A stretch of DNA of 64,000 nt from assembly GCA_030737835.1 (NCBI GenBank), contig CM060848.1, positions 4,946,361 through 5,010,360 on the forward strand, in the 5' to 3' direction. Numbering within the stretch: the stretch's first letter is position 1; each line of letters opens with the position of its first letter. Of the stretch, positions 34,205 through 57,365 are shown piece by piece. The translations under genes were made by a program, and so were the position numbers. Source of the stretch: Acorus gramineus. Lineage: Eukaryota > Streptophyta > Magnoliopsida > Acorales > Acoraceae. A model generated the notes under the pieces. It ran no database searches. It was not told the origin of the DNA and was given only the letters and a program-made list of their open reading frames with translations.

Positions 34205-34254
34205 TTGGCATTAAGTTAGGCGATTATCGAGAGTAGTTGTTTTTTCATTGGGTT

Positions 34255-34858: not shown

Positions 34859-35486
34859 GCGTCTCTTCGACCAACGGTATGGTCTCTCCCCAAAAGTCCC
34901 AAGAGTCTTTCTCCGGGAGTGAGGGTGAGGGTGAGGGTGACGTTGGTCGTGCCGCCGCGTGACCCTGTTATCCATTGGGTTTCCACCCGTGTATTCCTTG
35001 TAAGGAAATTGCCTTAACATTGAACTATTGTAATGGTGATTGGTTTTCAGTCACTCACTGAGCTTGTAGCTCACCCCTCGCATACTGTTTCTTTTCAGGG
35101 ACAGTGTTGGGCGTGGAGCTGGAGCTTCCCTGTGGCGTGGTCTTATGTGCATGGAGCGTTCTGTCCGGCGGATGGCGAGTGCGAGGCTGTCAGCAGTCCT
35201 AGAGTCATTTTATGTATTGTGAATCGTGCATCTGGCATAGGTTATATTTTATTTGGACTAGACCTGGCTCTCTCATAGGACAGTGATTGTGTATTCGAGT
35301 CTGTAATAATGTTTTTGGTTTATAGACATTGTTGATATCTTATGCTTCCACTTTTCAGTCAGTTATCATTTATCTTTGCTTTGTCACCCTGTGTGTTGTT
35401 GTTGGAGTCTTTGTTGACCTCAGGTATTGATAGCTGATAATTTATATATTGCCGCGTCTCGGGGACGGCCGCCCTGGGACGTGACA

Positions 35487-36790
35487 CCTACCATTCCACG
35501 GGAAAGTGTTGGATTTGCATAGCAAGAAGATATCCGACATTCACCTCCTACAGAAGCATTTTCCATCAACGAATTTGCACAGAAAGGATGTTCGAGAGAA
35601 GCTCATTCAGCTCCACTCATCAAAGGAGGAGGAGGACCAGTAGGACTTTATTCGGATCCTTATTATTCTCATGTGTGCTACCTTTCTGCTACCCAACAAG
35701 AGGTATGCGTGTCCCAACAATGTGGCCAGATACTTGGAAAATCTTGATGCAACCTGAAAATTTTCGTGGGCATCGACTGTCCATGAAATGATAATAAAGG
35801 ACCTGAGGCTGTTTGCCCAGAGAGTAAGACAAAGAGATTCCAGGGAAGGGGTTAACCTAGGATACATCACCGGATGCACGGCTACTTTGATGGTTAGCTT
35901 ACCCTATTTGTTCTTAGTTTTTTTTTATTAATGTGTACATGTCAGGCATATAATATGAAAAGCATAATGCAGGTGTGGTTCTACGAGCACACCAGACTAA
36001 GGAGTCCGTCATCATATGGAATAGTTCCAAGATTTTTCCAATGGGGGAGGATGAATGACAAAAGCCCCCTCTTCCGCTGCTCAGAACAATTCCACCTCAT
36101 CAGAGCAGAGCAGGTAATTCATAATGATTATGTATGTATCTATCTATATATGTGTATCATGTTATCTTTGTATTATCTCTGTAAACAAAATTTCTCTGTT
36201 TTGGAAATGAATTACAATTTTTTGCTAATACTATATTAGTTTCTGTAAACACTATATGTATTTCTGTAACCTAATACTTCGTTTATGTAATCATGTTCTC
36301 ATTTATGTAAATACTTGGTTTTTTTTAGGTGGATCCTGAGCTCAATATTGGCCGAGATGAGGAGCACCTTTTTAGGCCACATGACGCAACATTAATGGTT
36401 CAGCAAATTAGGATGAGGGCCATTAAGCAGCTAAGAGAGGAAGAGAATAAAAGAGAAGGGGAAGAGAAAAATTCTTGAGGGAGAAAAACAGAAGGAGGAG
36501 AACAAGAAGAAGAAGAGAGAAGAAGAAGTAGAGAGGGGGAAGGGAGGGGAGGACTCTAAGAGAAGTTTGGAGATGCTGAAGAAGAATAAACAACTCCAAA
36601 AGGAAGTACAGAGGCTCTAGCAAGAGATCCAGAAGCTGAACAAGTGCATGCAGACTATGAGGATGGAAAATGGTCAATTGACGAGCTTGCATGATCCAAT
36701 TGTTGAAAGATTCGGCCAGGTTGGAATACATAATCTGAATCAATGTACAAAAAAGGTTATACAAGTCACAGATTTTGTAAACATACTTAC
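35487..36790 (+). pseudogene. MULE-associated gene resembling plant mobile-domain proteins, broken
   Basis: Exon-like segments read KVLDLHSKKISDIHLLQKHF, RKDVREKLIQLHSSKEEEDQ, a stop, then ILIILMCATFLLPNKRYACP, another stop, then GVNLGYITGCTATLM up to about 35892. A plausible intron (GTTAGC to ATGCAG, about 35893-35970) leads to VWFYEHTRLRSP and PRFFQWGR. A second intron (GTAATTC to TTTTTAG, about 36115-36329) leads to VDPELNIGRDEEHLFRPHDA and a Glu/Lys-rich tail. The layout (predicted helical region, ITGC, WFYEH, PRF..W) resembles the DUF1985/plant mobile domain proteins carried by some MULEs. This assignment comes from memory of the family and is tentative. Its 5' part is cut by the LTR fragment ending at 35486. 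Confidence 0.6.
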
Positions 36791-37740
36791 ATAAACTATT
36801 ATGTTAGTTGCGAAAATAGTTAAGCTACTGAATATCTTATCCCATATTGCTTGTCCTGAAATAGTGCATTACACCAATGCTCGAGACTATGTTCAGCGAT
36901 CCACACCTCATCTTGAGGCACCTCCCTTTTCAAATCTTCAAGTGCTTTTTCATATCCACATCTTGTATATGAATATGCAACGGAATCCAGCAAACTGGAC
37001 AAAACTTCCTTGCGTGTTTTGTTATATGATTTCAAAACAGTACTCTTAAAATTCATTTTTAGATGCCTATGACAGTAAGAATGATATGAATTGGAAAAGG
37101 TTTGGTTCATGACAACAATCATACCCTTGCATCTGTCCGAAATAAATGTAATCCGACATTCACTGGTAAGAGCATTCTTCAAGTGTGTAAAGAACCACAA
37201 CCATGAGTCAGAGTGCTCATTATCAACGACCACGAACGCAACAAGATAAAGCTTCTCTTCAGCATTATAGGAAGAGGCGGCCAACAATATTCCTTAAAAT
37301 CTAGACTTCAAAAATGTTGCATCAACACACAACATCAGTCTGCATCCAGTCTCAAAACCTTTGATGCATGCTCGAAAAGAGATGAATAAATAGTTGAATC
37401 GTTGTGTGGCATCCGTTTCGATCACCACTAAGCTACCTGGATTAGTGGCTTCAACGGCATCTGCATATCATCTCATTTGATCAAAACAACAAAATTCATT
37501 ACCATGCAATTCATTATTTGCGATCTCCTTTCCATGCCATGTCCGATCATATGTAACATTCATCCCAAATTGTCTATTCAGTTGGTTCCTCATGTCCTTT
37601 GCGGTGAATAAGGGATTAACTTGAAGATCATCTTTAACAAGTTCAGAAATCCATTTACTGCCAGCCTTTGGATGCCCTGCTCTTCGTAAACCACCCCCGC
37701 AAGTATGTGTCGGTATATAAGTCTTTAGTTTAAACAACTG

Positions 37741-37752
37741 CCCCCCCCCCCC
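37741..37752. repeat. Poly-C run causing a frame change in the transposase
   Basis: About 12 consecutive C. The transposase frame before and after it differs. Homopolymer length should be confirmed in reads, since it is also a common assembly error. Confidence 0.8.
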
Positions 37753-38145
37753 TCCTTTGCTTGCCAAACAGATGCATGAATTCGTCAACTGCAATTGTGT
37801 GCAGCACATCTTGCAGTCACTCTGATTCTGTCACTCTTAATGACATGATAGTCAAACTCGTGTGCAATAGAAAAGTTGCGAAGGTCACGGCGAAAGTGAT
37901 CTACATCATGAAAGATTTGGCCAGGCTTTGTAATGAGGTCTCCCCACATGTTAATCATTAGTATATGAGCTTCATTAGCCTCTATGTTTTTGATGTTCAC
38001 CAATGACATATCATGAGTTTCTTCGACAGCATTTTCATTAACATCGTGATTTGACCCATTCCACTGAAAGGGGGGAATTTCAGGTCTAGGAGTATTTACA
38101 GAATATATATCATGAGTTACAGAATCAATGTTTTCATTTTCAGAA

Positions 38146-38150
38146 TTATC
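38146..38150. repeat. Target site duplication TTATC, left, of the LTR array
   Basis: TTATC precedes the first LTR and recurs at 54639-54643 after the third LTR, 16.5 kb away. Confidence 0.92.
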
Positions 38151-41100
38151 TGTCACGCCCCGGGCGTCCCCGGTACGCGGCAAGTGTATATATAATATCA
38201 GAATCTACACAGGAGGTCAATAATATAACATACACAAGCAGCCAGAATGACACACAGACAACAAAAGCAGGGCTGACATGATATATACACCAAATGCGGA
38301 TAACTAAAGACTGAATCTGTAATCAAAATATACTACAGACTCCATACATAATCACATGTCCTGTGAGAGCCAATATACATACAAAGACATCCAAATACAA
38401 CACAAACGCGTGCCCAAGCACGGAAAATACATACTGGTACAAGGGATGCTGATAGCCTCTGCAACTCGCGGGACGTGGCGCTACTCCGCTACTGATGAAA
38501 TCCCTCGGGGAGCTCCTCCTCCAGATCCGACTCAGATGACACTGTAGAAAGATATTATGCGAGGGGTGAGCCACACGCTCAGTGAACGGCACAACCCATG
38601 CATCACAGACAATATTTACCACGATTCCATTATTTATCCAGTCTCTAAGACATAACAACATGATCCAGTGATTCGTACTTCGCCGAACCACCACACCCTC
38701 ACCCTCACCCATCAATGGGTGACATAGGTTATTGGGACTGATAATCATCCATTCACATATCCAGTAGGTCGCTCATCGCCAACCCACTACACCCTCACCC
38801 TCACCCTACCACGGGTGACATAGGATTTTGGGACTGATTATACCAAACCAGCGGGTCGCTTCCGCCAACCCGCTACACCCTCACCCTCACCCTTCAATGG
38901 GTGACATAGGATATTGGGACTAACTGCACCAAAAATCAACGGGTCGCTTCCGCCAACCCGCCACACCCTCACCCTCACCCTTCAACGGGTGACATAGGAT
39001 ATTGGGACTTACAATCCAGTGGGTCGCCACATCGCCGGCCCACCATACCCTCACCCTCACCTTTCAACAGGTGACATAGGCTCTTGGGACTGGCTAGGCT
39101 GTTGGTCACCCTTGGTCCACCGATAGTCTCTCCTCACTCCGCGGTTGTTTGGCCACTCCCATGTTCAGCACAGTCCTTCATCAAACCAGGAGGCGCCTAC
39201 TAGTGGGAGCCCCTGCACGGGACAACCTGTCTAACGCCGAGGTAGTCTCTAAAGGATCCAACGCAGGGCAACAGAACAGCCTAACCATCGCATATGATCC
39301 ACTCGGATCCGCAGACAACACATCATAACAACACTAACGTTCTGAATTCCTCAGAACCCACCAGGGCGCATAACTACGATGCGGGGAACATGCATAAGGT
39401 TATAACAGGGTGAAATATTGTTGGGGGAAAGCAACTCGGGAGGGCAGCGTGAGTTCCCGTTATAGGACACCCCGACAACCAAACAAGGAACACGGTGTAC
39501 CCTAACCCGGGTCTCACCGCTGTCCTCGCAAGGCCCCTCCCCTAAAATATTCACTATAACATGCAATTCAATAAATACTAGCCTTTAATTTAATAAATAA
39601 ACTAGTAGGGCACATGCATCGGTCGGGCTTCCTAACAAGGAACCAGGGGACATGCTGCATGGCTCATATACATATATCCTAAGGGTGCAAGTCCCTAACA
39701 TGCAAAGTCTAGGGTAACATGCATTCTACAGTTTAATCATGCTCGCATGATATACATATCATTGCAGGTTAATATTTATCCATGACGCCCCAGGAGAGGT
39801 CGGTATACGCCCAAATGCGTATGACCCCTCTCTACTGGGTTGAATTGTCCCACTCACCAGGAATCGGGTCGACGCGCGACCGTCCGTCTAGATCTGCAAG
39901 ACAGACATTCACTGGTTAGTATTAATCCACAATGACCCCAAAATACATAACATACACCAATAAACACCCAAAATCCCAAATTAATCATCCAACACCTCCC
40001 CAACAACCACCCGCGGCCTCGGCAACCACCCGCACGGCCCCCGGCAACCACCCGCACGGCCGGCCACCGCCCGGACGCGCCGCCGCGGGCCCCGCACGCC
40101 TTGCGCCGGTCCGCGAGCACCCCGCGCGCCCCCGCACGCAGTGCCCCGCCTCGCGCGCACCCCGCGCGCACCTCCGCCACCTTGCCGCACCTCGCGCGCA
40201 CCTCGCACGCACCTCGCACACCTCGCGCGCACCTCGCACGCACCTCGCCGCACCTCGCCGCGCTTCGCGCGCACCTCGCGGCCTCACCGCGCCCTCCGCG
40301 CACCACCACGGACTCGCCGCGCCCTCCGCGCGCGCACCACATTGCGCCCGCGCACGCCGCCTCGCGCCCGTGCCTCCTCCGCGCGCGCCCCGGCACCTCA
40401 GCCACCACCTCGCGCACGCCCTCCGCTGCCTTCACGCGCACCAGTCCGCCCAGCACCGCGCGCGCTCCGCCCAGCCCTCGGCCAGCACCTCCGCGCGCGC
40501 CCAGACCAGCGCCCAGACCAGCCTCTGCCCGCCCAGCACTGGCCCCTGCTCGCCCAGGCCGACCAGCACCCTGCACCAGGCCCGCGCGCCCTCGCGCGCA
40601 CGCCGCGCGTACGCGCGCCCGCGCACGCACGCGCGCCTGCCCGCGCGCACCCGACCTGCGCGCCGCCTGGCTGCTGCTGCTGCTGCCTGCTGCCCGGAAT
40701 GACCTGCCGCAGCCCGAGCGCCACCACCACCCCTCCCTTGACCACCGACCACCTTCCAACCACCTCCGACCACCCTCCGACGACCCCCACAGCCGCCGAC
40801 CACTCCCAAACACCAAACCCACCTCCCTAGCATTCATCTATGCAAGAAAAAGAGGGAAAGGAGGCTTACCGAGGGGAGGAGGGGAAGTCCGGACGCTCTC
40901 CGCTCGCCAAAACCTTTCCCAAGGGTTTCCCCCCGACGGATCTCGCTCGGCCTCCGAAACAGCCCCGATCCGAGCAGAAAGAGAGGAGGTCGGAGTGGCT
41001 ATACTTGTCGGAAAAGGATTTGAAAACACCGGAGTGTAGATCGGGACCCGATCTACACTTCTCGTGTTTTAAGTTTTCGATTTTGAGGGGTGGAGGGGGC

Positions 41101-41453
41101 TCAAACGGAAGAAAAACGGAGAAGGGGAGAGAGAGGCTAGTCGGGAAGATGATGAATAGTGTAGGGCGTATTTTCGATTTCTTTTAAGTAGAGCGCGACT
41201 TAAAAACCCGGATACGCCCCGGAACTGCGAAATTTTTGCAAACGATGCCAGAATTCAATGAAATTTTCGTGAGAGGTCAGGAATGGCACCAGGACACCAA
41301 ATATGCAGTTAGATTTTCAATCGGAGTCCTCTAGCTCAGACGATAGCTAACAGTCTGAAATTATGCGGTTCCGATCGAAAAACCGGTAAAAACCAAAAAC
41401 TGCCAGAACGCTCTAACGGTTACCAACAGGTTAAAAGTGACACATATATAACA
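38151..41453 (-). mobile_element. LTR A of the three-LTR array (3303 bp)
   Basis: From TGTCACGCCCCGGGCGTCC to TATATAACA. It shares almost base-for-base sequence with LTR B 6.6 kb further on. It contains five tandem units (38694-39046), the conserved block with AACCAAACAAGGAACACGG, a CG-rich tract (about 40015-40720) and the palindrome at 41034-41058. The TATA region is changed to a poor ACTTAAAAG (- strand), so promoter activity is doubtful. Confidence 0.95.
38670..39110 (-). repeat. Tandem array with G-quadruplex-forming core (5 units)
   Basis: CACCCTCACC cores start near 38694, 38790, 38876, 38964 and 39046 (spacing 82-96 bp). The element-sense strand has GGGTGAGGGTGAGGG. Counterparts lie at about 45272-45712 (LTR B) and 51871-52305 (LTR C). 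Confidence 0.9.
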
Positions 41454-41539
41454 TTATCCCCCCCTTAGGAAATTTTGTCCCCAAAATTCGCCAAAAACAT
41501 CTAGGAGGGGGAAAGATGTGGATACACGTCACACCTGGC

Positions 41540-42036
41540 ATCCATGAGCTCTCAAGTGTCCTTAACACCGGAACGGTGCTGCCATCGCACCTCGACCAAC
41601 TAGACGGTCTTGGTGCAGAGCCTCCTCACGCGGCGGTCCATGATCTCAATCGACTGCTCCACGAATGACTGTCCGGCTCAGAGACGAGCGGCTCGAACGG
41701 GATGACGTGAGCAGGATCGCGGACACACCCTTATCCAACTGCGAACCCACCACTCCAAGACGGAGAGGTAAGAATTGGCGCTAAGGTGAGCCTCCGAGTA
41801 AACTCCAGGAAGCTCTCCTCGCAAGAAGGGGACCACTCGAACCGGACATCCTTTCGAGTAAGGCGGTTAAGAGGAACAGCTATCTTCGAGAGACCCTCGT
41901 CAAGCTTCCTGCAATAACCCGCCAAACTCGGGAAGCTCCGAATCCTAGCAGGGTTCGACGGTCGACGCCAATAAGACGCGACGAGCGTCTTGCCCGGGTC
42001 CACAGATATTCCTTTACCAGAAATCACCCAGCCCAA
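41540..42036 (-). pseudogene. Pol remnant in internal region 1
   Basis: The - strand reads [45 protein letters not shown] and SGGFAVG. The integrase-tail DNA follows, recognisable at the nucleotide level (GGAACGGTGCTGCCATCGCACCT, GACGGTCTTGGTGCAGAGCC). It shares the joint seen at 28095-28720, with an extra deletion that removes part of the RNase H start. Confidence 0.85.
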
Positions 42037-42946
42037 AAGGCCTTAACCACCAACCAAACTCACACCTAATCTTTCATCCATCACCAGCTGATGCTTCCAG
42101 GGTATCCCTTGACTGGGAAAAGAACCTTGGGAGGGCAGCATGAGGTCCCAATATAGGATACCCCGACAACCAAACAAGGAACACGAAGTACCCTAGCTCG
42201 GGTCTCAACGCTGACCTCACGCGGCCCCTTAAACCAGAAAAGGAACACTAGAAGAAGACATCATTCTTAAAGAACATTACCAACCTCACCGGATCATCTA
42301 CATCTAGATAATCACCCACCGACATCCTTCCACATCCATCTCAAGACCGAACCCATCCTCCGTGGGAATGGTCGAACAGCAATTTGGGTCACGAGGCGAC
42401 GTGTCCTTGTCTCATCCACACCCTCACTCCTATCAGGAGACATATTGGGACTTTGGGAGAGACTAGACTGTTCTACACCCCTGGTCCACCGGTAGCCTCT
42501 CCTCCACACCGTAGGCCGCCTGGTCCGCTCCCACAATTCAGCACAGTCCTTCTACCAAATCAGGAGGTGCCTACTGATGGGAGCCCTCTGTCAGGAAGGC
42601 CTTTCTAACGCTGAGGAGTCCCTACTCGGGTCCAACGAAGGGGAGAACAATTCCATACTCGCGACATCATCCATTACAGGACCGAACCCAACATCATCGG
42701 GAATGGTCGAATAAACCATTTGGTCACGAGCGACCCGCCTTCGCCTCATCCACACCCTCACTCCCGAAAGGAGACATTTTGGGACTTTGGGAGAGACTTA
42801 GACTGCTCTCTACCCCTGGTCCACCGGTAGCCTCTCCCCGCTCCGTAGCTCGCCTGGTCCTCTGACCGGGAGCCTGTCTAACGCCGGGGCTGTACTACAC
42901 GGATCCGACGAAGGGGAGAGCGATTCCACGCTCGCGACACCATTCC

Positions 42947-43240
42947 ATAATCCATTTCCGGATTAGCCCCTACCTGACATACTCCCACGATCAGTACCCC
43001 TCCGACTGCATCGGCGGTACCTACGGATGAGAGCCTCCTGCCAGGACGGCTACAACCCGGCTTCCTTAACCCAAACAACCATTCTTGATTCTCACTCATC
43101 CATTAATCCATTCCCGGATTAGCCCCTACCTGACATACTCCCACGATCAGTACCCCTCCGACTGCATCGGCGGTACCTACGGATGAGAGCCTCCTGTCAG
43201 GACGGCTACAACCCGGACTCTTTAACTCAAACAACCACAT
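42947..43240 (-). repeat. Tandem duplication in the filler of internal region 1
   Basis: CCGGATTAGCCCCTACCTGA through CGGCTACAACCCGG occurs twice, offset by about 165 bp. The same doubling is present in internal region 2 (about 49546-49840), so it predates the duplication of the unit. Confidence 0.9.
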
Positions 43241-43315
43241 TCATTACCCACTCAACAAGATAACACACACATGCTTAACAGCAACCAACACACATACATA
43301 TTCATTCACAGAGAG

Positions 43316-44632
43316 CTAGGGAACCAGGACATTACCTCGAACAATGACGCCCGAAACCTGCGCCTCCTCAGCCGAAAGCGCTGCAACCCTGCCTTGAACA
43401 AACTGCGGCAGAGGAGCAAGAGCACGCCCCGCCGGCTGCCGCTGCTGAGGTAGCACACGGGGTCGGCCAGCATCAGGGCAATTGGATCTGATATGCCCGA
43501 TGCGCTGACAATGGAAGCAACGCCGCCTCTCTGGTCGCCGGGACTGGATGGGCACTGCCGCAATGGGTGCTGGATCCCACTCTGGCACCACATCTGCTGG
43601 AGGAGAGGCAGCCGCTGACTGATCGAAACGGGGCCTCCTCCTCTTGCGCTGCCCCTGGTCCCGACTCCCGGAAGGACCCTGATCTGCAGAAAAGGTCGGA
43701 ACCCCCGCGATGATCCCGAGGTCTCGCTCGATTGTCTTCGCCCGAGACACCAAGTCCGAGAACCTCGAGAAAGCCTGGGAGGAGACATGCACCCGAATGG
43801 CGCTGCAGAGACCCAACTCGAAACGGCGGCACCGCGCCTCTTCGTCCAACACCAAAGCTGGAGCGAATCTGGATAGCCTCGTGAAGCGCGTGGAGTAGTC
43901 GGCGACAGACATAGAGCCTTGCGTCAACCGCTCAAACTCCTGCACCACGATCTGCTGCGCCGAGAACGGGAAGTACTCCTCCAGGAAATACCTCCGGAAT
44001 CCTGCCCAAGAAAGCTGCTCCACTCCCTCTGGAATGTCCACCACTCGGGTAGCCCACCAGTCGGCAGCGCTACCCTTCAGCATGAAGGTGGCCAGAGAGA
44101 CTCGCTGGCGATCGGTGCAAAGCATGGTCGAGAAGATCACCTCCACCTCCATCAACCATCGCTCTGGGGCAAGGGGATCCGCCAACTGGCCATAGAACTC
44201 GGGAGGGTGGAGCTTCAGAAAGGCTGCGAGGCCACTCTGCTGCACCCGCGCTGCAGCCTCTAGCCCACCTCCCTCGCCAGGGGATCCTGAACCCTCGCCG
44301 CTGGAAACACCACGGGGACTGGGGGTACTTCAGGTACCACAGACGGATCTGCTGCCAAGGGGACCTGTGGAAATGCATCACGGGCCGCCCTCAGCTCCCG
44401 GATCTCCCGCGCTTGCTCTACCAACGCTCTGGTCTGCGCCTCCAGTGCCCTAATCCGAGTCTCCACCGAATCCGCTGTCCAAGCGAACGCACGTTCCCGT
44501 GCGGGAGGCTCCTGCGCCGATCCTGGCCTCACGGCCGTGGACTCTCCAGTAGCATCCTCGCCTCTAGCAGGTCCGGAAACCTCCAAAGGTCGAGAGGGAC
44601 CATGTCCGCGCCGTCCTCCACGAGGAGACATA
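43316..44632 (-). pseudogene. gag: gag of internal region 1, one frameshift
   Basis: Same protein as the intact copy at 49915-51231, starting at an MSPRGG methionine near 44632. The N-terminal third contains an Arg/Glu/Ala-rich helix with coiled-coil character (RALEAQTRALVEQAREIREL). A 1-base deletion near 44260 (CTAGCCCACC where the other copy has CTAGCCTCACC) breaks the frame before the capsid-like domain. The capsid region and the CFHCQRIGHIRSNC zinc knuckle are then open to the stop at 43316. Confidence 0.92.
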
Positions 44633-44730
44633 TCAGCAATCCTAAGAAAACCAGACACTAGGATCAGAATACTCATCTCGAAATCCTAGGACTCACTTCT
44701 ACGAAAAGAAGACCATTGGCTCTGACAGGA

Positions 44731-44746
44731 CCAGGCTCTGATACCA
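44731..44746 (-). promoter_or_regulatory. Primer binding site, unit 1
   Basis: TGGTATCAGAGCCTGG on the - strand, 6 bases inside LTR B. Confidence 0.9.
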
Positions 44747-44752
44747 CCAATT

Positions 44753-47700
44753 TGTCACGCCCCGGGCGTCCCCGGTACGCGGCAAGTGTATATATAATAT
44801 CAGAATCTACACAGGAGGTCAATAATATAACATACACAAGCAACCAAAGACACACAGACAACAAAAGCAGGGCTGACATGATATATACACCAAATGCGGA
44901 TAACTAAAGACTGAATCTGTAATCAAAATATACTACAGACTCCATACATAATCACATGTCCTGTGAGAGCCAATATACATACAAAGACGTCCAAATACAA
45001 CACAAGCGCGTGCCCAAGCACGGGAAATACATACTGGTACAAGGGATGCTGATAGCCTCTGCAACTCGCGGGACGTGGCGCTACTCCGCTACTGATGAAA
45101 TCCCTCGGGGAGCTCCTCCTCCAGATCCGACTCAGATGACACTGTAGAGAAAAATATTATGCGAGGGGTGAGCCACACGCTCAGTGAACGGCACGACCCA
45201 TGCATCACAGACAATATTGACCACAATTCCATTATTTATCCAGTCTCTAAGACATAACAACATGATCCAGTGATTCGTACTTCGCCGAACCACCACACCC
45301 TCACCCTCACCCATCAATGGGTGACATAGGTTATTGGGACTGATAATAATCCATTCACAATCCAGTAGGTCGCTCATCGCCAACCCACTACACCCTCACC
45401 CTCACCCTACCACGGGTGACATAGGATTTTGGGACTGATTATACCAAACCAGCGGGTCGCTTCCGCCAACCCGCTACACCCTCACCCTCACCCTTCAATG
45501 GGTGACATAGGATATTGGGACTAACTGCACCAAAACCAACGGATCGCTTCCGCCAACCCGCCACACCCTCACCCTCACCCTTCAATGGGTGACATAGGAT
45601 TTTGGGACTTACAATCCAGTGGGTCGTCACAACGCCGGCCCACCATACCCTCACCCTCACCTTTCAACAGGTGACATAGGCTCTTGGGACTGACTAGGCT
45701 GTTGGTCACCCTTGGTCCACCGATAGTCTCTCCTCACTCCGCGGTTGTTTGGCCACTCCCATGTTCAGCACAGTCCTTCATCAAACCAGGAGGCGCCTAC
45801 TAGTGGGAGCCCCTGCACGGGACAACCTGTCTAACGCCGAGGTAGTCTCTAAAGGATCCAACGCAGGGCAACAGAACAGCCTAACCATCGCATATGATCC
45901 ACTCGGATCCGCAGACAACACATCATAACAACACTAACGTTCTGAATTCCTCAGAACCCACCAGGGCGCATAACTACGATGCGGGGAACATGCATAAGGT
46001 TATAACAGGGTGAAATATTGTTGGGGGAAAGCAACTCGGGAGGGCAGCGTGAGTTCCCGTTATAGGACACCCCGACAACCAAACAAGGAACACGGTGTAC
46101 CCTAACCCGGGTCTCACCGCTGTCCTCGCAAGGCCCCTCCCCTAAAATATTCACTATAACATGCAATTCAATAAATACTAGCCTTTAATTTAATAAATAA
46201 ACTAGTAGGGCACATGCATCGGTCGGGCTTCCTAACAAGGAACCAGGGGACATGCTGCATGGCTCATATACATATATCCTAAGGGTGCAAGTCCCTAACA
46301 TGCAAAGTCTAGGGTAACATGCATTCTACAGTTTAATCATGCTCGCATGATATACATATCATTGCAGGTTAATATTTATCCATGACGCCCCAGGAGAGGT
46401 CGGTATACGCCCAAATGCGTATGACCCTCTCTACTGGGTTGGATTGTCCCACTCACCAGGAATCTGGGTCGACGCGCGACCGTCCGTCTAGATCTGCAAG
46501 ACAGACATTCACTGGTTAGTATTAATCCACAATGACCCCAAAATACATAACATACACCAATAAACACCCAAAATCCCAAATTAATCATCCAACACCTCCC
46601 CAACAACCACCCGCGGCCTCGGCAACCACCCGCACGGCCCCCGGCAACCACCCGCACGGCCGGCCACCGCCCGGACGCGCCGCCGCGGGCCCCGCACGCC
46701 TCGCGCCGGTCCGCGAGCACCCCGCGCGCCCCCGCACGCAGTGCCCCGCCTCGCGCGCACCCCGCGCGCACCTCCGCCACCTTGCCGCACCTCGCGCGCA
46801 CCTCGCACGCACCTCGCACACCTCGCGCGCACCTCGCACGCACCTCGCCGCACCTCGCCGCGCTTCGCGCGCACCTCGCGGCCTCACCGCGCCCTCCGCG
46901 CACCACCACGGACTCGCCGCGCCCTCCGCGCGCGCACCACATTGCGCCCGCGCACGCCGCCTCGCGCCCGTGCCTCCTCCGCGCGCGCCCCGGCACCTCA
47001 GCCACCACCTCGCGCACGCCCTCCGCTGCCTTCACGCGCACCAGTCCGCCCAGCACCGCGCGCGCTCCGCCCAGCCCTCGGCCAGCACCTCCACGCGCGC
47101 CCAGACCAGCGCCCAGACCAGCCTCTGCCCGCCCAGCACTGGCCCCTGCTCGCCCAGGCCGACCAGCACCCTGCACCAGGCCCGCGCGCCCTCGCGCGCA
47201 CGCCGCGCGTACGCGCGCCCGCGCACGCACGCGCGCCTGCCCGCGCGCACCCGACCTGGCGCCGCCTGGCTGCTGCTGCTGCTGCTGCTTGGCCCGGATG
47301 ACCTGCCGCAGCCCGAGCGCCACCACCACCCCTCCCTTGACCACCGACCTCCGACCACTTCCGCCGCCCTCCGACGGCCACCCACAGCCGCCGACCACCC
47401 CCAAACACCAAACCCACCTCCCTAGCATTCATCTATGCAAGAAAAAGAGGGAAGGGAAGCTTACCGAGGGGAGGAGGGGAAGTCCGGACGCTCTCCGCGC
47501 GCCGAAACCTTTCCCCAAGGGTTTCCTCCGACCGGATCTCGCTCGGCCTCCGAAACAGCCCCGATCCGAGCAGAAAGAGAGGAGGTCGGAGTGGCTATAC
47601 TTGTCGGAAAAGGGATTTGAAAACACCGGAGTGTAGATCGGGACCCGATCTACACTTCTCGTGTTTTAAGTTTTCGATTTTGAGGGGTGGAGGGGGCTCA

Positions 47701-48052
47701 AACGGAAGAAAAACGGAGAAGGGGAGAGAGAGAGGCTAGTCGGGAAGATGATGAATAGTGTAGGGCGTATTTTCGATTTCTTTTAAGTAGAGCGCGACTT
47801 AAAAACCCGGATACGCCCCGGAACTGGGAAATTTTTGCAAACGATGCCGGAATTCAACGAAATTTTCGTGAGAGGTCAGGAATGGCGCCAGGACACCAAA
47901 TATGCAGTTAGATTTTCAATCGGAGTCCTCTAGCTCAGAAAATAGCTAACAGACTGAAATTAAGCGGTTCCGATCGAAAAACCGGTAAAAACCGAAAACT
48001 GCCAGAACGCTCTAACGGTTACCAACAGGTTAAAAGTGACACATATATAACA
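44753..48052 (-). mobile_element. LTR B, shared middle LTR (3300 bp)
   Basis: Same termini as LTR A and C. It serves both as 5' LTR of unit 1 and 3' LTR of unit 2. At different sites it agrees with A against C (for example it keeps the ACGCCGCGCGTACGCGCG segment lost in C) or with C against A (GACCTGGCGCCGCC, where A has GACCTGCGCGCCGCC). At others it differs from both (CGACCTCCGACCACTTCCGC at about 47345). This mosaic points to recombination or conversion. Palindrome at 47631-47655, CG-rich tract about 46615-47320. Confidence 0.95.
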
Positions 48053-48129
48053 TTATTCCCCCCTTAGGAAATTTTGTCCCCAAAATTCGCCAAAAACATC
48101 TAGGAGGGGGAAAGATGTGGATACACGTC

Positions 48130-48635
48130 ACACCTGGCATCCATGAGCTCTCAAGTGTCCTTAACACCGGAACGGTGCTGCCATCGCACCTCGACCAACT
48201 GGACGGTCTTGGTGCAGAGCCTCCTCACGCGGCGGTCCATGATCTCAATCGACTGCTCCACGAATGACTGTCCGGCTCAGAGACGAGCGGCTCGAACGGG
48301 ATGACGTGAGCAGGATCGTGGACACAGCCTTTCCCAACTGCGAACCCACCCCTCCAAGACGGAAGGGTAAGAATTGGCGCTGAGGTGAGCCTCCGAGTAA
48401 ACTCCAGGAAGCTCTCCTCGCAAGACGGGGACCACTCGAACCGGATATCCTTCCGAGTAAGGCGGTTAAGAGGAACAGCTATCTTCGAGAGACCCTCGTC
48501 AAGCTTCCTGCAATAACCCGCCAAACTCGGGAAGCTCCGAATCCTAGCAGGGTTCGACGGTCGACGCCAATAAGACGCGACGAGCGTCTTGCCCGGGTCC
48601 ACAGATATTCCTTTACCAGAAATCACCCAGCCCAA
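48130..48635 (-). pseudogene. Pol remnant in internal region 2
   Basis: The - strand reads [32 protein letters not shown] and TLPSWRGGFAVGKGCV, joined to [13 protein letters not shown]. So the GCV/HDPAHV joint of 28095-28720 is present, plus a further loss of the residues after FAV. The integrase tail then runs out of frame. Confidence 0.87.
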
Positions 48636-49914
48636 AAGGCCTTAACCACCAACCAAACTCACACCTAATCTTTCATCCATCACCAGCTGATGCTTCCAGG
48701 GTATCCCTTGACTGGGAAAAGAACCTTGGGAGGGCAGCATGAGGTCCCAATATAGGATACCCCGACAACCAAACAAGGAACACGAAGTACCCTAGCTCGG
48801 GTCTCAACGCTGACCTCACGCGGCCCCTTAAACCAGAAAAGGAACACTAGAAGAAGACATCATTCTTAAAGAACATTACCAACCTCACCGGATCATCTAC
48901 ATCTAGATAATCACCCACCGACATCCTTCCACATCCATCTCAAGACCGAACCCATCCTCCGTGGGAATGGTCGAACAGCAATTTGGGTCACGAGGTGACG
49001 TGTCCTTGTCTCATCCACACCCTCACTCCTATCAGGAGACATATTGGGACTTTGGGAGAGACTAGACTGTTCTACACCCCTGGTCCACCGGTAGCCTCTC
49101 CTCCACACCGTAGGCCGCCTGGTCCACTCCCACAATTCAGCACAATCCTTCTACCAAATCAGGAGGTGCCTACTGAGGGGAGCCCTCTGTCAGGAAGGCC
49201 TCTCTAACGCTGAGGAGTCCCTACTAGGGTCCAACGAAGGGGAGAACAATTCCATACTCGCGACATCATCCATTACAGGACCGAACCCAACATCATCGGG
49301 AATGGTCGAATAAACCATTTGGTCACGAGCGACCCGCCTTCGCCTCATCCACACCCTCACTCCCGAAAGGAGACATTTTGGGACTTTGGGAGAGACTTAG
49401 ACTGCTCTCTACCCCTGGTCCACCGGTAGCCTCTCCCCGCTCCGTAGCTCGCCTGGTCCTCTGACCGGGAGCCTGTCTAACGCCGGGGCTGTACTACACG
49501 GATCCGACGAAGGGGAGAGCGATTCCACGCTCGCGACACCATTCCATAATCCATTTCCGGATTAGCCCCTACCTGACATACTCCCACGATCAGTACCCCT
49601 CCGACTGCATCGGCGGTACCTACGGATGAGAGCCTCCTGCCAGGACGGCTACAACCCGGCTTCCTTAACCCAAACAACCATTCTTGATTCTCACTCATCC
49701 ATTAATCCATTCCCGGATTAGCCCCTACCTGACATACTCCCACGATCAGTACCCCTCCGACTGCATCGGCGGTACCTACGGATGAGAGCCTCCTGTCAGG
49801 ACGGCTACAACCCGGACTCTTTAACTCAAACAACCACATTCATTACCCACTCAACAAGATAACACACACATGCTTAACAGCAACCAACACACATACATAT
49901 TCATTCACAGAGAG

Positions 49915-51231
49915 CTAGGGAACCAGGACATTACCTCGAACAATGACGCCCGAAACCCGCGCCTCCTCGGCCGAAAGCGCTGCAACCCCGCCTTGAACAA
50001 ACTGCGGCAGAGGAGCAAGAGCACGCCCCGCCGGCTGCCGCTGCTGAGGTAGCACACGGGGTCGGCCAGCATCAGGGCAATTGGATCTGATATGCCCGAT
50101 GCGCTGACAATGGAAGCAACGCCGCCTCTCCGGCCGCCAGGACTGGATGGGCAATGCTGCAATGGGTGCTGGATCCCACTCTGGCACCACATCTGCTGGA
50201 GGAGAGGCAGCCGCTGACTGATCGAAACGGGGCCTCCTCCTCTTGCGCTGCCCCTGGTCCCGACTCCCGGAAGGACCCTGATCTGCAGAAAAGGTCGGAA
50301 CCCCACCGATGATCCCGAGGTCTCGCTCGACTGTCTTCGCTCGAGACACCAAGTCCGAGAACCTCGAGAAAGCCTGGGAGGAGACATGCACCCGAATGGC
50401 GCTGCAGAGACCAAGTTCGAAACGGCGGCACCGCGCCTCTTCGTCCATCACCAAAGCTGGAGCGAATCGGGATAGCCTCGTGAAGCGCGTGGAGTAGTCG
50501 GCGACAGACATAGAGCCCTGCGTCAACCGCACAAACTCCTGCACCACGATCTGCTGCGCCGAGAACGGGAAGTACTCCTCCAGGAAATACCTCTGGAATC
50601 CTGCCCAAGAAAGCTGCTCCACTCCCTCTGGAATGTCCACCACTCGGGTAGCCCACCAGTCGGCAGTGCTACCCTTCAGCATGAAGGTGGCCAGAGAGAC
50701 TCGCTGGCGATCGGTGCAAAGCATGGTCGAGAAGATCACCTCCACCTCCATCAACCATCGCTCTGGGGCAAGGGGATCCGCCAACTGGCCATAGAACTCG
50801 GGAGGATGGAGCTTCAGAAAGGCTGCGAGGCTACTCTGCTGCACCCGCGCTACAGCCTCTAGCCTCACCTCCCTCGCCAGGGGATCATGAACCCTCGCCG
50901 CTGGAATCACCACGGGGACTGGGGGTACTTCAGGTACCACAGACGGATCTGCTGCCAAGGGGACCTGTGGAAATGCATCACGGGCCGCCCTCAGCTCCCG
51001 GATCTCCCGCGCTTGCTCTACCAACGCTCTGGTCTGCGCCTCCAGTGCCCTGATCCGAGTCTCCACCGAATCCGCTGTCCAAGCGAACGCACGTTCCCGT
51101 GCGGGAGGCTCCTGCGCCGATCCTGGCCTCACGGCCGTGGACTCTCCAGTAGCATCCTCGCCTCTAGCAGGTCCGGAAACCTCCAAAGGTCGAGAGGGAC
51201 CATGTCCGCGCCGTCCTCCACGAGGAGACAT
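49915..51231 (-). CDS. gag: gag polyprotein of internal region 2, open frame
   Basis: The only uninterrupted gag, about 438 residues from the MSPRGG methionine (an in-frame upstream ATG at 51276 would add 15). The order is a basic and acidic N-terminus, a helical region with RALEAQTRALVEQAREIREL, the retrotransposon gag/capsid-like domain (FLKLHPPEFYGQ, WLMEVEVIFSTM, ADWWATRVVDIPEGVEQL, YFLEEYFPFSAQQIVV, MSVADYSTRFTRLSRFAP), an Arg/Lys-rich stretch and a CX2CX4HX4C zinc knuckle (CFHCQRIGHIRSNC) near the C-terminus. It would assemble particles and package RNA. The C-terminus ends before any protease, so it is a gag-only element. No expression evidence is available and the LTR TATA sequence is degraded. 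Confidence 0.9.
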   Translation of the reverse strand: MSPRGGRRGHGPSRPLEVSGPARGEDATGESTAVRPGSAQEPPARERAFAWTADSVETRIRALEAQTRALVEQAREIRELRAARDAFPQVPLAADPSVVPEVPPVPVVIPAARVHDPLAREVRLEAVARVQQSSLAAFLKLHPPEFYGQLADPLAPERWLMEVEVIFSTMLCTDRQRVSLATFMLKGSTADWWATRVVDIPEGVEQLSWAGFQRYFLEEYFPFSAQQIVVQEFVRLTQGSMSVADYSTRFTRLSRFAPALVMDEEARCRRFELGLCSAIRVHVSSQAFSRFSDLVSRAKTVERDLGIIGGVPTFSADQGPSGSRDQGQRKRRRPRFDQSAAASPPADVVPEWDPAPIAALPIQSWRPERRRCFHCQRIGHIRSNCPDAGRPRVLPQQRQPAGRALAPLPQFVQGGVAALSAEEARVSGVIVRGNVLVP

Positions 51232-51328
51232 ATCAGCAATCCTAAGAAAACCAGACACTAGGATCAGAATACTCATCTCGAAATCCTAGGACTCACTTCT
51301 ACGAAAAAGACCATTGGCTCTGACAGGA

Positions 51329-51344
51329 CCAGGCTCTGATACCA
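51329..51344 (-). promoter_or_regulatory. Primer binding site, unit 2
   Basis: TGGTATCAGAGCCTGG on the - strand, 6 bases inside LTR C. Confidence 0.9.
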
Positions 51345-51350
51345 CCAATT

Positions 51351-54300
51351 TGTCACGCCCCGGGCGTCCCCGGTACGCGGCAAGTGTATATATAATATCA
51401 GAATCTACACAGGAGGTCAATAATATAACATACACAACAACCAGGAAGACACACTGACAACAAAAGCAGGGCTGACATGATATATACACCAAATGCGGAT
51501 AACTAAAGACTGAATCTGTAATCAAAACACTACAGACTCCATACATAATCACATGTCCTGTGAGAGCCAATATACATACAAAGACATCCAAATACAACAC
51601 AAACGCGTGCCCAAGCACGGAAAATACATACTGGTACAAGGGATGCTGATAGCCTCTGCAACTCGCGGGACGTGGCGCTACTCCGCTACTGATGAAATCC
51701 CTCGGGGAGCTCCTCCTGCAGATCCGACTCAGATGACACTGGAGAAAAATATATGCGAGGGGTGAGCCACACGCTCAGTGAATAGCACAACCCATGCATC
51801 ACAGACAATATTTACCACAATTCCATTATTTATCCAGTCTCTAAGACATAACAACATGATCCAGTGATTCGTACTTCGCCGAACCACCACACCCTCACCC
51901 TCACCCATCAATGGGTGACATAGGTTATTGGGACTGATAATAATCCATTCACATCCAGTAGGTCGCTCATCGCCAACCCACTACACCCTCACCCTCACCC
52001 TACCACGGGTGACATAGGATTTTGGGACTGATTATACCAAAACAGCGGGTCGCTTCCGCCAACCCGCCACACCCTCACCCTCACCCTTCAATGGGTGACA
52101 TAGGATATTGGGACTAACTGCACCAAAAATCAACGGGTCGCTTCCGCCAACCCGCCACACCCTCACCCTCACCCTTCAATGGGTGACATAGGATTTTGGG
52201 ACTTACAATCCAGTGGGTCGTCACAACGCCGGCCCACCATACCCTCACCCTCACCTTTCAACAGGTGACATAGGCTCTTGGGACTGACTAGGCTGTTGGT
52301 CACCCTTGGTCCACCGATAGTCTCTCCTCACTCCGCGGTTGTTTGGCCACTCCCATGTTCAGCACAGTCCTTCATCAAACCAGGAGGCGCCTACTAGTGG
52401 GAGCCCCTGCACGGGACAACCTGTCTAACGCCGAGGTAGTCTCTAAAGGATCCAACGCAGGGCAACAGAACAGCCTAACCATCGCATATGATCCACTCGG
52501 ATCCGCAGACAACACATCATAACAACTCTAACGTTCTGAATTCCTCAGAACCCACCAGGGCGCATAACTACGATGCGGGGAACATGCATAAGGTTATAAC
52601 AGGGTGAAATATTGTTGGGGGAAAGCAACTCGGGAGGGCAGCGTGAGTTCCCGTTATAGGACACCCCGACAACCAAACAAGGAACACGGTGTACCCTAAC
52701 CCGGGTCTCACCGCTGTCCTCGCAAGGCCCCTCCCCTAAAATATTCACTATAACATGCAATTCAACAAATACTAGCATTTAATTTAATAAATAAACTAGT
52801 AGGGCACATGCATCGGTCGGGCTTCCTAACAAGGAACCAGGGGACATGCTGCATGGCTCATATACATATCCTAAGGGTGCAAGTCCCTAACATGCACAGT
52901 CTAGGGAAGCATGCATTCTACAATTAAATCATGCTCGCATGATATACATATCATTGCAGGTTAATATTTATCCATGACGCCCCAGGAGAGGTCGGTATAC
53001 GCCCAAATGCGTATGACCCCTCTCTACTGGGTTGAATTGTCCCACTCACCAGGAATCGGGTCGACGCGCGACCGTCCGTCGAGATCTGCAAGACAGGTAT
53101 TCACTGGTTAGAATAAATCCATAATGACCCCAAAATACATAACATACACCAATAAACACCCAAAATCCCAAATCATCCAACACCTCCCCAACAACCACCC
53201 GCGGCCTCGGCAACCACCCGCACGGCCCCCGGCAACCACCCGCACGGCCGGCCACCGCCCGGACGCGCCGCCGCGGGCCCCGCACGCCTCGCGCCGGTCC
53301 GCGAGCACCCCGCGCGCCCCCGCACGCAGTGCCCCGCCTCGCGCGCACCCCGCGCGCACCTCCGCCACCTTGCCGCACCTCGCGCGCACCTCGCACGCAC
53401 CTCGCACACCTCGCGCGCACCTCGCACGCACCTCGCACGCCTTACCGCACCTCGCGCGCACCTCGCACGCACCTCGCCGCACCTCGCCGCGCTTCGCGCG
53501 CACCTCCACGGCCTCACCGCGCCCTCCGCGCACCACCACGGACTCGCCGCGCCCTCCGCGCGCGCACCACATTGCGCCCGCGCACGCCGCCTCGCGCCCG
53601 TGCCTCCTCCGCGCGCGCCCCGGCACCTCAGCCACCACCTCGCGCACGCCCTCCGCTGCCTCCACGCGCACCAGTCCGCCCAGCACCGCGCGCGCTCCAC
53701 CCAGCCCTCGGCCAGCACCTCCGCGCGCGCCCAGACCAGCGCCCAGACCAGCCTCTGCCCGCCCAGCACTGGCCCCTGCTCGCCCAGACCGACCAGCACC
53801 CTGCACCAGGCCCGCGCGCGCCTGCCCGCGCGCACCGACCTGGCGCCGCCTGGCTGCTGCTGCTGCTGCTGCTTGGCCCGGACGACCTGCCGCAGCCCGA
53901 GCGCCACCACCACCCCTCCCTTGACCACCGACCACCTTCCAACCACCTCCGACCACCCTCCGACGACCCCCACAGCCGCCGACCACCCCCAAACACCAAA
54001 CCCACCTCCCTAGCATACATTCATGCAAGAAAAGAGGGAAGGGAAGCTTACCGAGGGGAGGAGGGGAAGTCCGGACGCTCTCCGCGCGCCGAAACCTTTC
54101 CCCAAGGGTTTCCTCCGACCGGATCTCGCTCGGCCTCCGAAACAGCCCCGATCCGAGCAGAAAGAGAGGAGGTCGGAGTGGCTATACTTGTCGGAAAAGG
54201 GATTTGAAAACACCGGAGTGTAGATCGGGACCCGATCTACACTTCTCGTGTTTTAAGTTTTCGATTTTGAGGGGTGGAGGGGGCTCAAACGGAAGAAAAA

Positions 54301-54638
54301 CGGAGGAGGGGAGAGAGAGAGGCTAGTCGGGAAGATGATGAATAGTGCTGGGCGTATTTTCGATTTCTTTTAAGTAGAGCGCGACTTAAAAACCCGGATA
54401 CGCCCCGGAACTGGGAAATTTTGCAAACGATGCCGGAATTCAACGAAATTTTCGTGAGAGGTCAGGAATGGCGCCAGGACACCAAATATGCAGTTAGATT
54501 TTCAATCGGAGTCCTCTAGCTCAGACAATAGCTAACAGTCTGAAAATACGCGGTTCCGATCGAAAAACCGGTAAAAACCGAAAACTGCCAGAACGCTCTA
54601 ACGGTTACCAACAGGTTAAAAGTGACACATATATAACA
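51351..54638 (-). mobile_element. LTR C, outer 5' LTR of the array (3288 bp)
   Basis: Same termini as A and B. Compared with them its CG-rich tract (about 53200-53900) has an extra GCACGCCTTACCGCACC-type segment near 53436 and lacks about 46 bp around 53820. Palindrome at 54218-54242. Followed at once by TTATC. Confidence 0.95.
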
Positions 54639-54643
54639 TTATC
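54639..54643. repeat. Target site duplication TTATC, right, of the LTR array
   Basis: Matches 38146-38150. One pair encloses all three LTRs. Confidence 0.92.
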
Positions 54644-55035
54644 AAAGTCCATTACATAATCAAATGCACAATATCAATGTCCATTACAGAATCAATGTTT
54701 ACAACTATGTCACAAATGTATTCTTCTGATACTTACATAAAAACAGATATACATGCACCACATGCCCATTTTCAATTACAGTTTCTATGCACTAACTTAC
54801 AGGTGTGACCATGCAAAGTTCACATAAATCGATAATCCTAAAGATGATTATGCATACCCATTGGAATTTTAAGCAAAGAGGTGTATTAGTCGGGCATCAA
54901 AGCGAATGTGTAGCTGAACCATCTTCTTCATATCACGATCATCGATCAATGTCACATTCTTTATCACAGCCGGGAATGGAGTACTTCATTGTCATTTTAG
55001 ATGGATCCAAGTTCCATCTTCAACACACTACCTAA
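54644..55035 (-). pseudogene. N-terminal part of the Mutator-like transposase, broken
   Basis: The - strand reads TWIHLK, MKYSIPGC and, in a neighbouring frame, KNVTLIDDRDMKKMVQLHI followed by DARLIHLFA. This is the PB1-like N-terminal module common in plant MuDR transposases. It continues toward the array and would join the DNA-binding domain at 38150 if the 16.5-kb insertion were absent. Several stops and frame changes show it was already decaying. Confidence 0.7.
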
Positions 55036-55984
55036 CAAAACTTTGAAACCCAGTATCTTCTCCAACATCTGCAATATATGAATCCTCTCTGTATTTACAA
55101 TGGGTAGGTAATGAAGACATCGGGTGAGTTTCGGCGATGGGTTTCGATGTGTATAACAGCGACTGGGTTCTTCGCCAGGTGGAAGAGAAGTCGATGGAGG
55201 AGGAGAGAAGGGTCAATGCGGTCATAGTCGGGTGGTCGGATGAAGGAGATCGGTGAGGGTTTCAAAAACAGAGGGACAAAGTTGATTTTGTGAGGCTAGT
55301 AGGGATTGTGAAAAAGAAGGATATTGGTGGAACAAATAAATGATGTGACAGATAAGATGATAGAATAAAAAAAAAAAATAAGTGTGTACAATAAAAAATA
55401 AATAAAAAAAATTTAAAAGGTGTGAGCACAGAAAAAACTAAAATTGAGTTACAGGGTACTTGAACCATTGACGAAAAAAACAAAAACAAAAATTATGATA
55501 AGGGATAATTCACTCTGGGAACAAAAAAATTTTGTTTTTATTTGGAAGTTTGAAACACGTTTCCTGTCTAATCACGTGTCAGAGATATCCTTCCAAGAAT
55601 GAAGGTTGAACTTTAACCGTAAAAAAATAAATGAAAAGAAAAAAAAAAAAAAAGTAAAGGATAGTTGAACGACCCATCAAGTGATAGAATAGATTAGTTT
55701 TTTATGCGATATAAATGAGTATAACTGACTATGCTCCATACAGCTCGACACGATACCTACCCCCCATGTCCCCATTGATGCCTTGTCTATTCCCAACAAG
55801 TATTTTCTTTAACCAACTACCGTACTTTAGCCACCATCAGTCATTTAGATTTATGCTAATCCCACCCATCTATAAATATATCTTTACATAATACAATCCA
55901 CCCAATCACATTTTTTTTTACAGGCGCGTCTATCTTCATCAATCATTTCTTTTAACTCATTAATAATAATAAAATAAATGTTTT
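55036..55984. other. MULE flank and AT-rich intergenic DNA
   Basis: 55040-55260 (GC-balanced, antisense frame starting MTALTLLSSSIDF) is probably the 5' region of the MULE. Terminal inverted repeats could not be identified. The remainder is AT-rich with A-runs. Confidence 0.5.
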
Positions 55985-56735
55985 TTTTTGTTCCCACCGA
56001 TCCGGTCAGTTCGATCAAACTTGATCGTCACTTTAAGTTTTGGACGATCAGATTTGATCATCATTTCATATTTTGAGTAACCTAACTTGGTCGTCATTTC
56101 AGGTTTTAGACGACCGAACTTGATTTATGATAAAGTTTATAATTTTTTCTTGGAAACCTAATCCCATGACGTGTATCCTCCTTGAATTTTTCATACCACT
56201 CTAAGTCTAAGTTGTAATGTATGGGGAATCAATCATTATTCTTAAATGTAGAACACAGGAATAGTCTTTTTACATAAGTGAGAGACACATTTTTCAAAGT
56301 CAAATATAAAATGTATTTGGATCAACTGGTAGTTTTTTTTTTTCAAACAAAATGATATATATTTGTCACTTAATCACGAATTTAAACGAAACTTAAAAAT
56401 GATATATATTTGTCTAATAAGATATTTTTCTATAAAAAATTGAATTAATTGAAAGTATACCTACTCACATCTTTTTCAGTCCCTTAGCTGCTGTTTGGAT
56501 AAAGGAATAAACGTAGAATATGATGGATAAACCCAAAAGTTTACAAAAATAAGTAAATATAGCTATGTCAAAAACATATAATATCTTGACTCCGTTCGAC
56601 TCGGTTGTCCAAAACCTAAAATGACAACCAAGTTCAGTCGCCCAAAACCTGAAATGACGACCGAGTTCGATCGTTCAAAATATGAAATGGCGACCAAGTT
56701 CGATCGACCTGGATTGGTGGGAACAGCCAAACACT
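55985..56735. mobile_element. Inverted-repeat element with repeat-built arms
   Basis: The left arm (about 55990-56125) starts GTTCCCACCGATCCGGTCAG and the right arm (about 56580-56725) ends in GGTGGGAAC as its inverted match. Each arm holds three to four copies of a motif of about 39 bp, GTTCGATCA.ACTTG.TCGTCATTTCA.TTTTGGACGA, in opposite orientation on the two sides. The centre is AT-rich. No coding capacity; the target duplication was not resolved. Confidence 0.78.
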
Positions 56736-57117
56736 GTTTTTTTTTATGGTAGGTTAAGGGAAACAATTGGTGGGGATAGACACGCCCTTCTCTTACACAC
56801 TCTCTCCTCACCCTTTTTTTCCCTCTTCACTGTGCGGGCAAGGCGGACGAGGCTAGCTTGGGGCGGTGCGGTTCCTTCATAGAGTTGTAGTCCAAGTGGG
56901 CGGAGGTGGAGGCGACAGAGGAGTAGTTGAAGCAATGGGTCTAGAAGAGTTCTCTCATTGTGTTGACAGCGATGGTGCAACTAAGGGATTGTTGCGCTCG
57001 GCCTCCAGGATTCAACAATCACACTCTTTGATTGCTGTGCACTTAGAAAATCAAAGGAACACAAGCTCACAGTACTGACTCCATAATTTTGTATGTGGAA
57101 TAAACTAGGGAATATGT
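56736..57117. other. Intergenic DNA with a segment echoed upstream of the SCPL gene
   Basis: TTAAGGGAAACAATTGGTGG followed by GGATAGACACGCCC (56755-56790) resembles CTAAGGGATTGTTTTGGTGG followed by GGGGATAGACACGCCC at 58078-58113. Short open frames on both strands (for example 56866-57078) match nothing I recognise. Confidence 0.5.
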
Positions 57118-57151
57118 GTGTGTGTGTGTGTGTGTGTTTTTTTTTTTTTTT
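57118..57151. repeat. (TG)n and poly-T microsatellite
   Basis: About ten TG units followed by a T run. Confidence 0.9.
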
Positions 57152-57180
57152 TCTGTCCCCTCCTCAAGGAATGCATACCC

Positions 57181-57189
57181 TTTATATAG
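57181..57189 (-). promoter_or_regulatory. TATA-like site on the - strand
   Basis: The - strand reads GGGCTCTATATAAAGGG. A promoter of a lost element or gene is possible, but no gene downstream (to the left) was recognised. Confidence 0.3.
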
Positions 57190-57214
57190 AGCCCCAAAAC
57201 TCTTCAAATACATG

Positions 57215-57365
57215 AACCAACATTAATTAAATTCATACACCCACATTCATTGGATAGTTAATCCAATTATTGTAATTTATGCACCCATATTTAATGGAAA
57301 GTTAATTGAGGAGAATACATGCACCAATATTCATTGGAAAGTTAATAGATGAGAATTCGAAAGGA
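57215..57365. repeat. Imperfect tandem repeat, about 55-65 bp units
   Basis: Three units carry CA.CCA.ATT.A.TGGA.AGTTAAT (near 57240, 57285 and 57330). Confidence 0.65.

Follow-up and report, generated by a model that had tools for sequence, protein, structure and literature searches.

Within the 64,000-nucleotide stretch of DNA analysed here (the window; contig 2, 4,946,361-5,010,360), three LTRs alternate with two internal regions, INT1 and INT2, and the resulting array securely stems from one insertion into a copy of a Mutator-like transposon. The three-LTR structure is real in the assembly. On balance, the second unit was probably supplied by an early exchange between LTRs. The locus has several assets that bear on the question of origin: a segmental duplicate without the array at a distance of about 345 kb, several copies of the host repeat whose site is empty, and sister arrays elsewhere in the genome. 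Separating private mutations from pre-existing alleles provides a test beyond the reach of a single target duplication.

Layout of the array and its insertion site

An initial annotation, made from the sequence alone, had described three LTRs and two internal regions enclosed by a single TTATC pair, and alignment confirmed their lengths and the position of the pair to the base (Table 1). LTRs and internal regions alternate, with an LTR at both ends and one flanking 5-bp duplication but none at the inner junctions, the layout of a tandem LTR-retrotransposon array in the sense of PMC11899658. Aligned with itself, the window gives 9.9 kb at 96.8% identity with an offset of 6.6 kb, so the repeat structure is not due to chance. 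The check proposed with the annotation, an alignment of the three LTRs and the two internal regions, gave 46-69 substitutions per pair, all copies being distinct: 49/3292 (1.49%) for LTR1-LTR2, 52/3237 (1.61%) for LTR2-LTR3, 69/3242 (2.13%) for LTR1-LTR3, the least similar LTR pair, and 46/3297 for INT1-INT2 (47/3297 in an alignment with other family members). The outer LTRs have diverged more than the internal regions (69/3242 versus 47/3297, Fisher p=0.039).

Table 1. Features of the array and its host repeat (positions in the window)
Feature	Position	Strand	Remarks
Host Mutator-like transposase ORF	36820-37287	minus	MULE PF10551 1.1e-13, Transposase_mut 1.8e-8; in the repeat holding the array
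Left target-site duplication, TTATC	38146-38150		Present once in six of the seven paralogues with an empty site; C missing in the seventh
LTR1	38151-41453 (3303 bp)	minus	3' LTR in element orientation
INT1	41454-44752 (3299 bp)	minus	Purine tract adjoins LTR1, primer site adjoins LTR2; gag frame interrupted
gag ORF fragment, 309 aa (INT1)	43316-44245	minus	Retrotrans_gag 4.2e-17, Ty3_capsid 7.6e-10
LTR2	44753-48052 (3300 bp)	minus	Shared middle LTR
INT2	48053-51350 (3298 bp)	minus	Purine tract adjoins LTR2, primer site adjoins LTR3
gag ORF, 453 aa, open (INT2)	49915-51276	minus	Retrotrans_gag 7e-16, Ty3_capsid 1.3e-8
LTR3	51351-54638 (3288 bp)	minus	5' LTR in element orientation
Right target-site duplication, TTATC	54639-54643		Pairs with the left copy across the array

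A search of the genome with the left flank gave at least 43 matches (the best 40 of 77 candidates scored). The seven host-repeat paralogues retrieved all run contiguously across the insertion site and lack the array there. Since the site is uninterrupted in every one of them, TTATC is a true target duplication (by chance alone, such a pair would match one time in 1024), and the claim that the array goes back to one insertion is well supported. A second target duplication at an inner junction, which the annotation had named as grounds for giving up its view, was looked for, and none was found. The one candidate, a TTATC at 41454-41458 in INT1, directly after LTR1, was rejected: INT2 reads TTATT at that place, all 17 other family internals compared have T there, and the five bases ahead of LTR2 and of LTR3 are CAATT, so the inner TTATC has no partner before LTR2.

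One of the seven paralogues belongs to a larger segmental duplicate, inverted and lying at a distance of about 345 kb (G000:C2:4631780-4645579; L031, L038 and L039), which lacks the array and matches the window at 33,999-38,150, 54,644-55,609 and 55,764-61,277, the last up to the edge of the compared sequence. The left edge of the duplicate, at window position 33999, coincides with an LTR end. Its overall divergence from the window (169/10576) is exceeded by that of LTR1-LTR3 (p=0.045) but not by that of the internal regions (p=0.52). The bound that the duplicate places on the age of the array is loose, because its divergence is uneven, ranging from 33/494 (about 7%) near 34-35 kb to 10/4239 (about 0.2%) beyond 57 kb.

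Signals and coding content

The element is oriented along the minus strand, a point on which the annotation was silent. As had been said, a primer site and a purine tract are kept in each unit: the primer site, TGGTATCAGAGC, lies 6 bases past the LTR end ...GGGGCGTGACA, and the purine tract, containing CTAAGGGGGG, lies at the end of the unit, ahead of TGTTATATATG. We take the primer site to be a match to initiator methionine tRNA. On their U3 side, the LTRs carry a CpG-rich island, and it is on that side, too, that short tandem repeats occur and that the LTRs differ most in length (two differences, of 41 and 45 bp).

A Pfam scan covered all 17 frames on the minus strand that reach 70 aa and overlap INT1 or INT2, and Gag domains alone passed the cut-off, the zinc knuckle of the INT2 gag falling slightly under it. 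Domains of reverse transcriptase, integrase and protease were absent from these 17 frames, which well below the cut-off gave one RNase H-like match (E 0.036, 14.5 bits against the 29.8 needed) and two zinc-binding matches (E 0.093). Scanning the window for Rfam families and tRNAs gave no hits. The Ty3-type Gag, the Met-type primer site and the 5-bp duplication are those of Ty3/gypsy elements, and a Gag domain without pol domains in the scanned frames is the mark of a TR-GAG. Judged by these features of its sequence, the array element is a gag-only Ty3-type LTR retrotransposon.

Other elements are found nearby. Two solo LTRs of related type lie in the window at 19494-22639 and 4413-7873, with 5-bp duplications GTCGA and GGAAG. 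Solo LTRs mark LTR-LTR recombination, and these two were counted as support for it. An older related element (24973-33998) has no matching flanking duplication; the first 206 bp of its right LTR (30887-31092) share 96% identity with the end of the left LTR and are followed by a second copy of this stretch, 89% identical. A LINE-type ORF of 651 aa (876-2831; RVT_1 and zf-RVT) adjoins an LTR end at 906.

Origin of the second unit

The literature describes two routes that leave one target duplication: LTRs exchange once the element is in place, or the template is switched while reverse transcription is under way. From the single duplication, the annotation had concluded that the insertion was expanded after integration, most simply by unequal recombination between LTRs of sister or homologous copies. 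Such an expansion is plausible, but one duplication is no proof of it, since template switching predicts the same mark. Unequal recombination between LTRs fares better on other evidence, given below; a late and simple unequal crossover does not.

The case for LTR-LTR recombination rests mainly on the middle LTR. Variant events that single out one LTR number 47 for LTR3, 37 for LTR1 and 24 for LTR2 (two three-way events left out), and the low count of LTR2 has a binomial p of 0.008, which becomes 0.045 if clusters are collapsed at 15 bp and 0.030 if they are collapsed at 40 bp. Few variants peculiar to LTR2 are what would be expected of a hybrid between the outer LTRs, and a middle LTR that is the least distinctive, together with an outer pair that is the least alike, favors LTR-LTR recombination. 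The excess of LTR1-LTR3 over INT1-INT2 divergence counts on this side as well. A single crossover further predicts that LTR2 is like LTR3 in its left part and like LTR1 in its right. In the raw sites the order is reversed, left like LTR1 and right like LTR3, with a break near LTR position 2500; the pattern is mostly one in which LTR3 is the odd one on the left and LTR1 the odd one on the right. The reversal is not robust, its permutation p rising from 0.0001 (raw) to 0.075 when clusters are merged at 15 bp and to 0.46 at 40 bp. When parts of the LTRs were placed in trees rooted with three outgroup LTRs, none of the three topologies was rejected (lowest AU p 0.06), and polarising the LTR variants with outgroups from the window gave a mixed result.

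The internal regions were compared with other family members from the genome (398.6 Mb, 137 contigs). The best 40 of 3132 candidates were scored, and the 19 other loci used are the next-best matches (ranks 3-21) to one piece of INT1, not a random sample; 16 of them contributed 17 internal sequences, L018, L024 and L028 being left out as incomplete. Both alleles are present among these 17 sequences at 36 of the 47 positions where INT1 and INT2 differ. By comparison, only about 9% of fresh transitions and about 2% of fresh transversions would hit on an allele already present. The 11 private differences (2 in INT1, 9 in INT2) stand against at most one unique state common to both, and INT1 and INT2 are not supported as sisters in the family alignment. 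A simple crossover would leave internal regions differing by private mutations only, which is not what is found. These old family alleles and the near absence of shared unique states mean that the expansion was early or that the units have different sources: either INT1 and INT2 would come from different source copies, or one unit would have been duplicated early and then given tracts by other copies. The internal regions lie 2-3% from those of L011, L012, L013, L017 and L020, and the array LTRs are closest to those of L014 and L019, at about 8%; with different nearest relatives, LTR and internal histories disagree.

Taken as proof of two sources, the presence of both alleles elsewhere fails a control. 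The LTRs of 11 of the 19 loci were compared (L016, L018, L021-L024, L026 and L028 left out), and the LTR pairs at ten of ten control loci (L011-L015, L017, L019, L020, L025 and L027; six are two-LTR copies with perfect duplications) differ at old alleles beyond the null (p values unadjusted). Allele scrambling thus occurs in ordinary copies too, and this prevents a firm choice of mechanism. It could be due to ectopic conversion, to unlike templates at birth or to an artefact of read polishing. Gene conversion between LTRs is documented in plants and is described as far commoner within than between elements (PMC7251063). That other LTR pairs differ largely at old alleles also calls for caution in dating insertions by LTR divergence.

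The genome offers at least two further three-LTR arrays for comparison. Among the best 40 of 3132 candidates, at least two pairs of internal regions stand at array spacing: that of the studied array (6,599 bp) and one at C2:940,859/947,285 (6,426 bp), which belongs to a three-LTR array whose right LTR is truncated (CAT; L009-L010). The other array, L020x (C32:3,751,730-3,767,755), is complete, with LTRs of 3202, 3203 and 3030 bp within CGGGA duplications. In all, the ends of the 11 loci show six two-LTR copies with perfect duplications, the two arrays, two copies without duplication (L011 and L012) and one that is cut (L025). The middle LTR of L020x has the order that a crossover predicts, its left part like the right LTR and its right part like the left (permutation p 0.007, 0.022 and 0.058), the best break shifting from about 1100 to about 2870 on collapsing clusters, and its internal regions have three shared-unique states versus one private. 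Its middle LTR carries 9 single-LTR variants versus 17 and 16, which is not significant (p 0.067-0.14). In CAT, the count for the middle LTR, taken over the first 2546 positions, is 24 versus 25 and 16, so the low-uniqueness signal is absent. Of the LTR pairs of CAT, the outer two are the most alike (32/2548 versus 40/2543 and 57/3306). The internal regions of CAT differ at 93/3102 although its LTRs differ by just 1.3-1.7%.

We lean toward an early LTR-LTR exchange. One gag-only Ty3-type element, on the minus strand, inserted once into the Mutator-like transposon copy and produced the TTATC duplication, the step that the empty paralogues directly attest. According to this model, the second 6.6-kb unit was then probably supplied, either during the insertion itself or shortly afterwards, when sister chromatids or homologues recombined through their 3.3-kb LTRs, in which case LTR2 would be the recombinant junction LTR. 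The early timing is suggested by the scarcity of unique states shared by INT1 and INT2 relative to their private differences. Short tracts exchanged later between the LTRs of the array, and between the array and some of the family's many other copies, may have blurred the crossover point. At least one other array, L020x, has both a middle LTR of the crossover type and shared-unique internal states, as the model would have it. Against the model stand the old-allele differences between the internal regions, which would not be expected if one unit had simply been copied, and the reversed, though not robust, order of sites in LTR2. Low uniqueness of the middle LTR falls short of significance in L020x and is missing from CAT, whose internal regions differ more than its LTRs do.

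Perhaps the array was instead born as a concatemer: the minus strand would have jumped from the R region of one RNA to that of a second, co-packaged RNA, or a read-through tandem RNA would have been copied, and the three-LTR cDNA integrated once. This is possible but less likely. The model and cases of it are published; as formulated, it leaves one duplication and outer LTRs that are identical, with the middle LTR free to differ (PMC1950507). It fits the single target duplication; two source RNAs would give old-allele differences, unsupported sisterhood and few shared unique states in the internal regions, and in CAT it is the outer LTRs that are most alike. In the studied array, however, the outer LTRs resemble each other least and the middle one, far from odd, is the least distinctive, and the old-allele signal is unspecific, being seen in all ten control pairs. 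A related reading, which we consider doubtful, is that of a heterodimer, its two internal regions coming from different co-packaged or cDNA-recombined sources; exchange between templates would be the rule in this gag-only family, unlike LTRs at integration would be ordinary, and LTR divergence would be no measure of age.

Entry of a second copy (linear cDNA or a one-LTR circle) by homology into an LTR of an existing two-LTR insertion, as in yeast, a route mentioned in PMC11899658, would account for one duplication and two unlike internal regions. It is nonetheless quite improbable: entry at the left LTR predicts an LTR2 that is odd on the left, and entry at the right LTR one that is odd on the right, but the odd ones are mostly LTR3 on the left and LTR1 on the right, and neither version fits without further conversion (the order test, again, is not robust). 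Still less likely is an artefact of assembly or polishing, in which one unit is spurious or mis-mapped reads carried alleles from copy to copy. Polishing with short reads could, in a repeat family, also produce the scrambled alleles of all ten control LTR pairs, but the five parts of the array are clearly distinct, the assembly contains at least two further arrays, a read-confirmed array, TLI1, is reported in PMC11899658, and a chimera of two haplotypes would give an LTR2 like LTR3 on the left, which is not seen (by an order test that is not robust). Recombination between two neighboring independent insertions, said in PMC1950507 to account for most three-LTR complexes without duplications, would leave unmatched flanks and is rejected, the empty site being contiguous in all seven paralogues.

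Comparison with known systems

Arrays of this kind are already established in many plants, and the studied locus is a well-preserved ordinary case. The types of element present suggest a plant host. With its LTRs, its Gag domain and no pol domain at cut-off, the element resembles TR-GAG and LARD elements, which are non-autonomous Ty3 types, the likeness being one of features. The CpG-rich U3-side island is similar to the 5' islands reported from Del LTRs of monocots; the scanned frames gave no reverse transcriptase domain by which to place the element with Del/Tekay.

Tandem LTR-retrotransposon structures are reported from rice, Arabidopsis, almond and cotton (TLI1, TLI2 and the IDENTAM set), with 266 in a rice pangenome and 130 in cotton, in a 2025 survey that describes their origin as unresolved and leaves the choice of route open (PMC11899658). 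The studied array is like these in having three LTRs, two internal regions and one 5-bp duplication, and like TLI2, whose units are about 99% identical, in being inserted in a MULE (PMC11899658). It differs from the 28 curated arrays, which that survey describes as having conserved retrotransposon domains and does not, in its account of them, call gag-only, in that Gag domains alone are found here (PMC11899658).

Three-LTR complexes with single duplications are described from Aegilops, Triticum, rice and maize (PMC1950507). Those attributed to template switching, Angela, Squiq and Opie, share with the studied array an internal LTR, two cores and a flanking 5-bp duplication, but their diagnostic similarity of outer LTRs is absent here (PMC1950507). 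Three LTRs are reported in 8 of 89 intact Wukong elements of maize (PMC4528315). For BARE1 of barley, a figure of at least 4600 is cited for structures of this kind (PMC7215508). Tandem units with common LTRs link the studied array to the TRIM families Wukong and Cassandra; in contrast to TRIMs, which are small and described as without coding domains, it has LTRs of 3.3 kb and encodes Gag (PMC4528315, PMC7215508).
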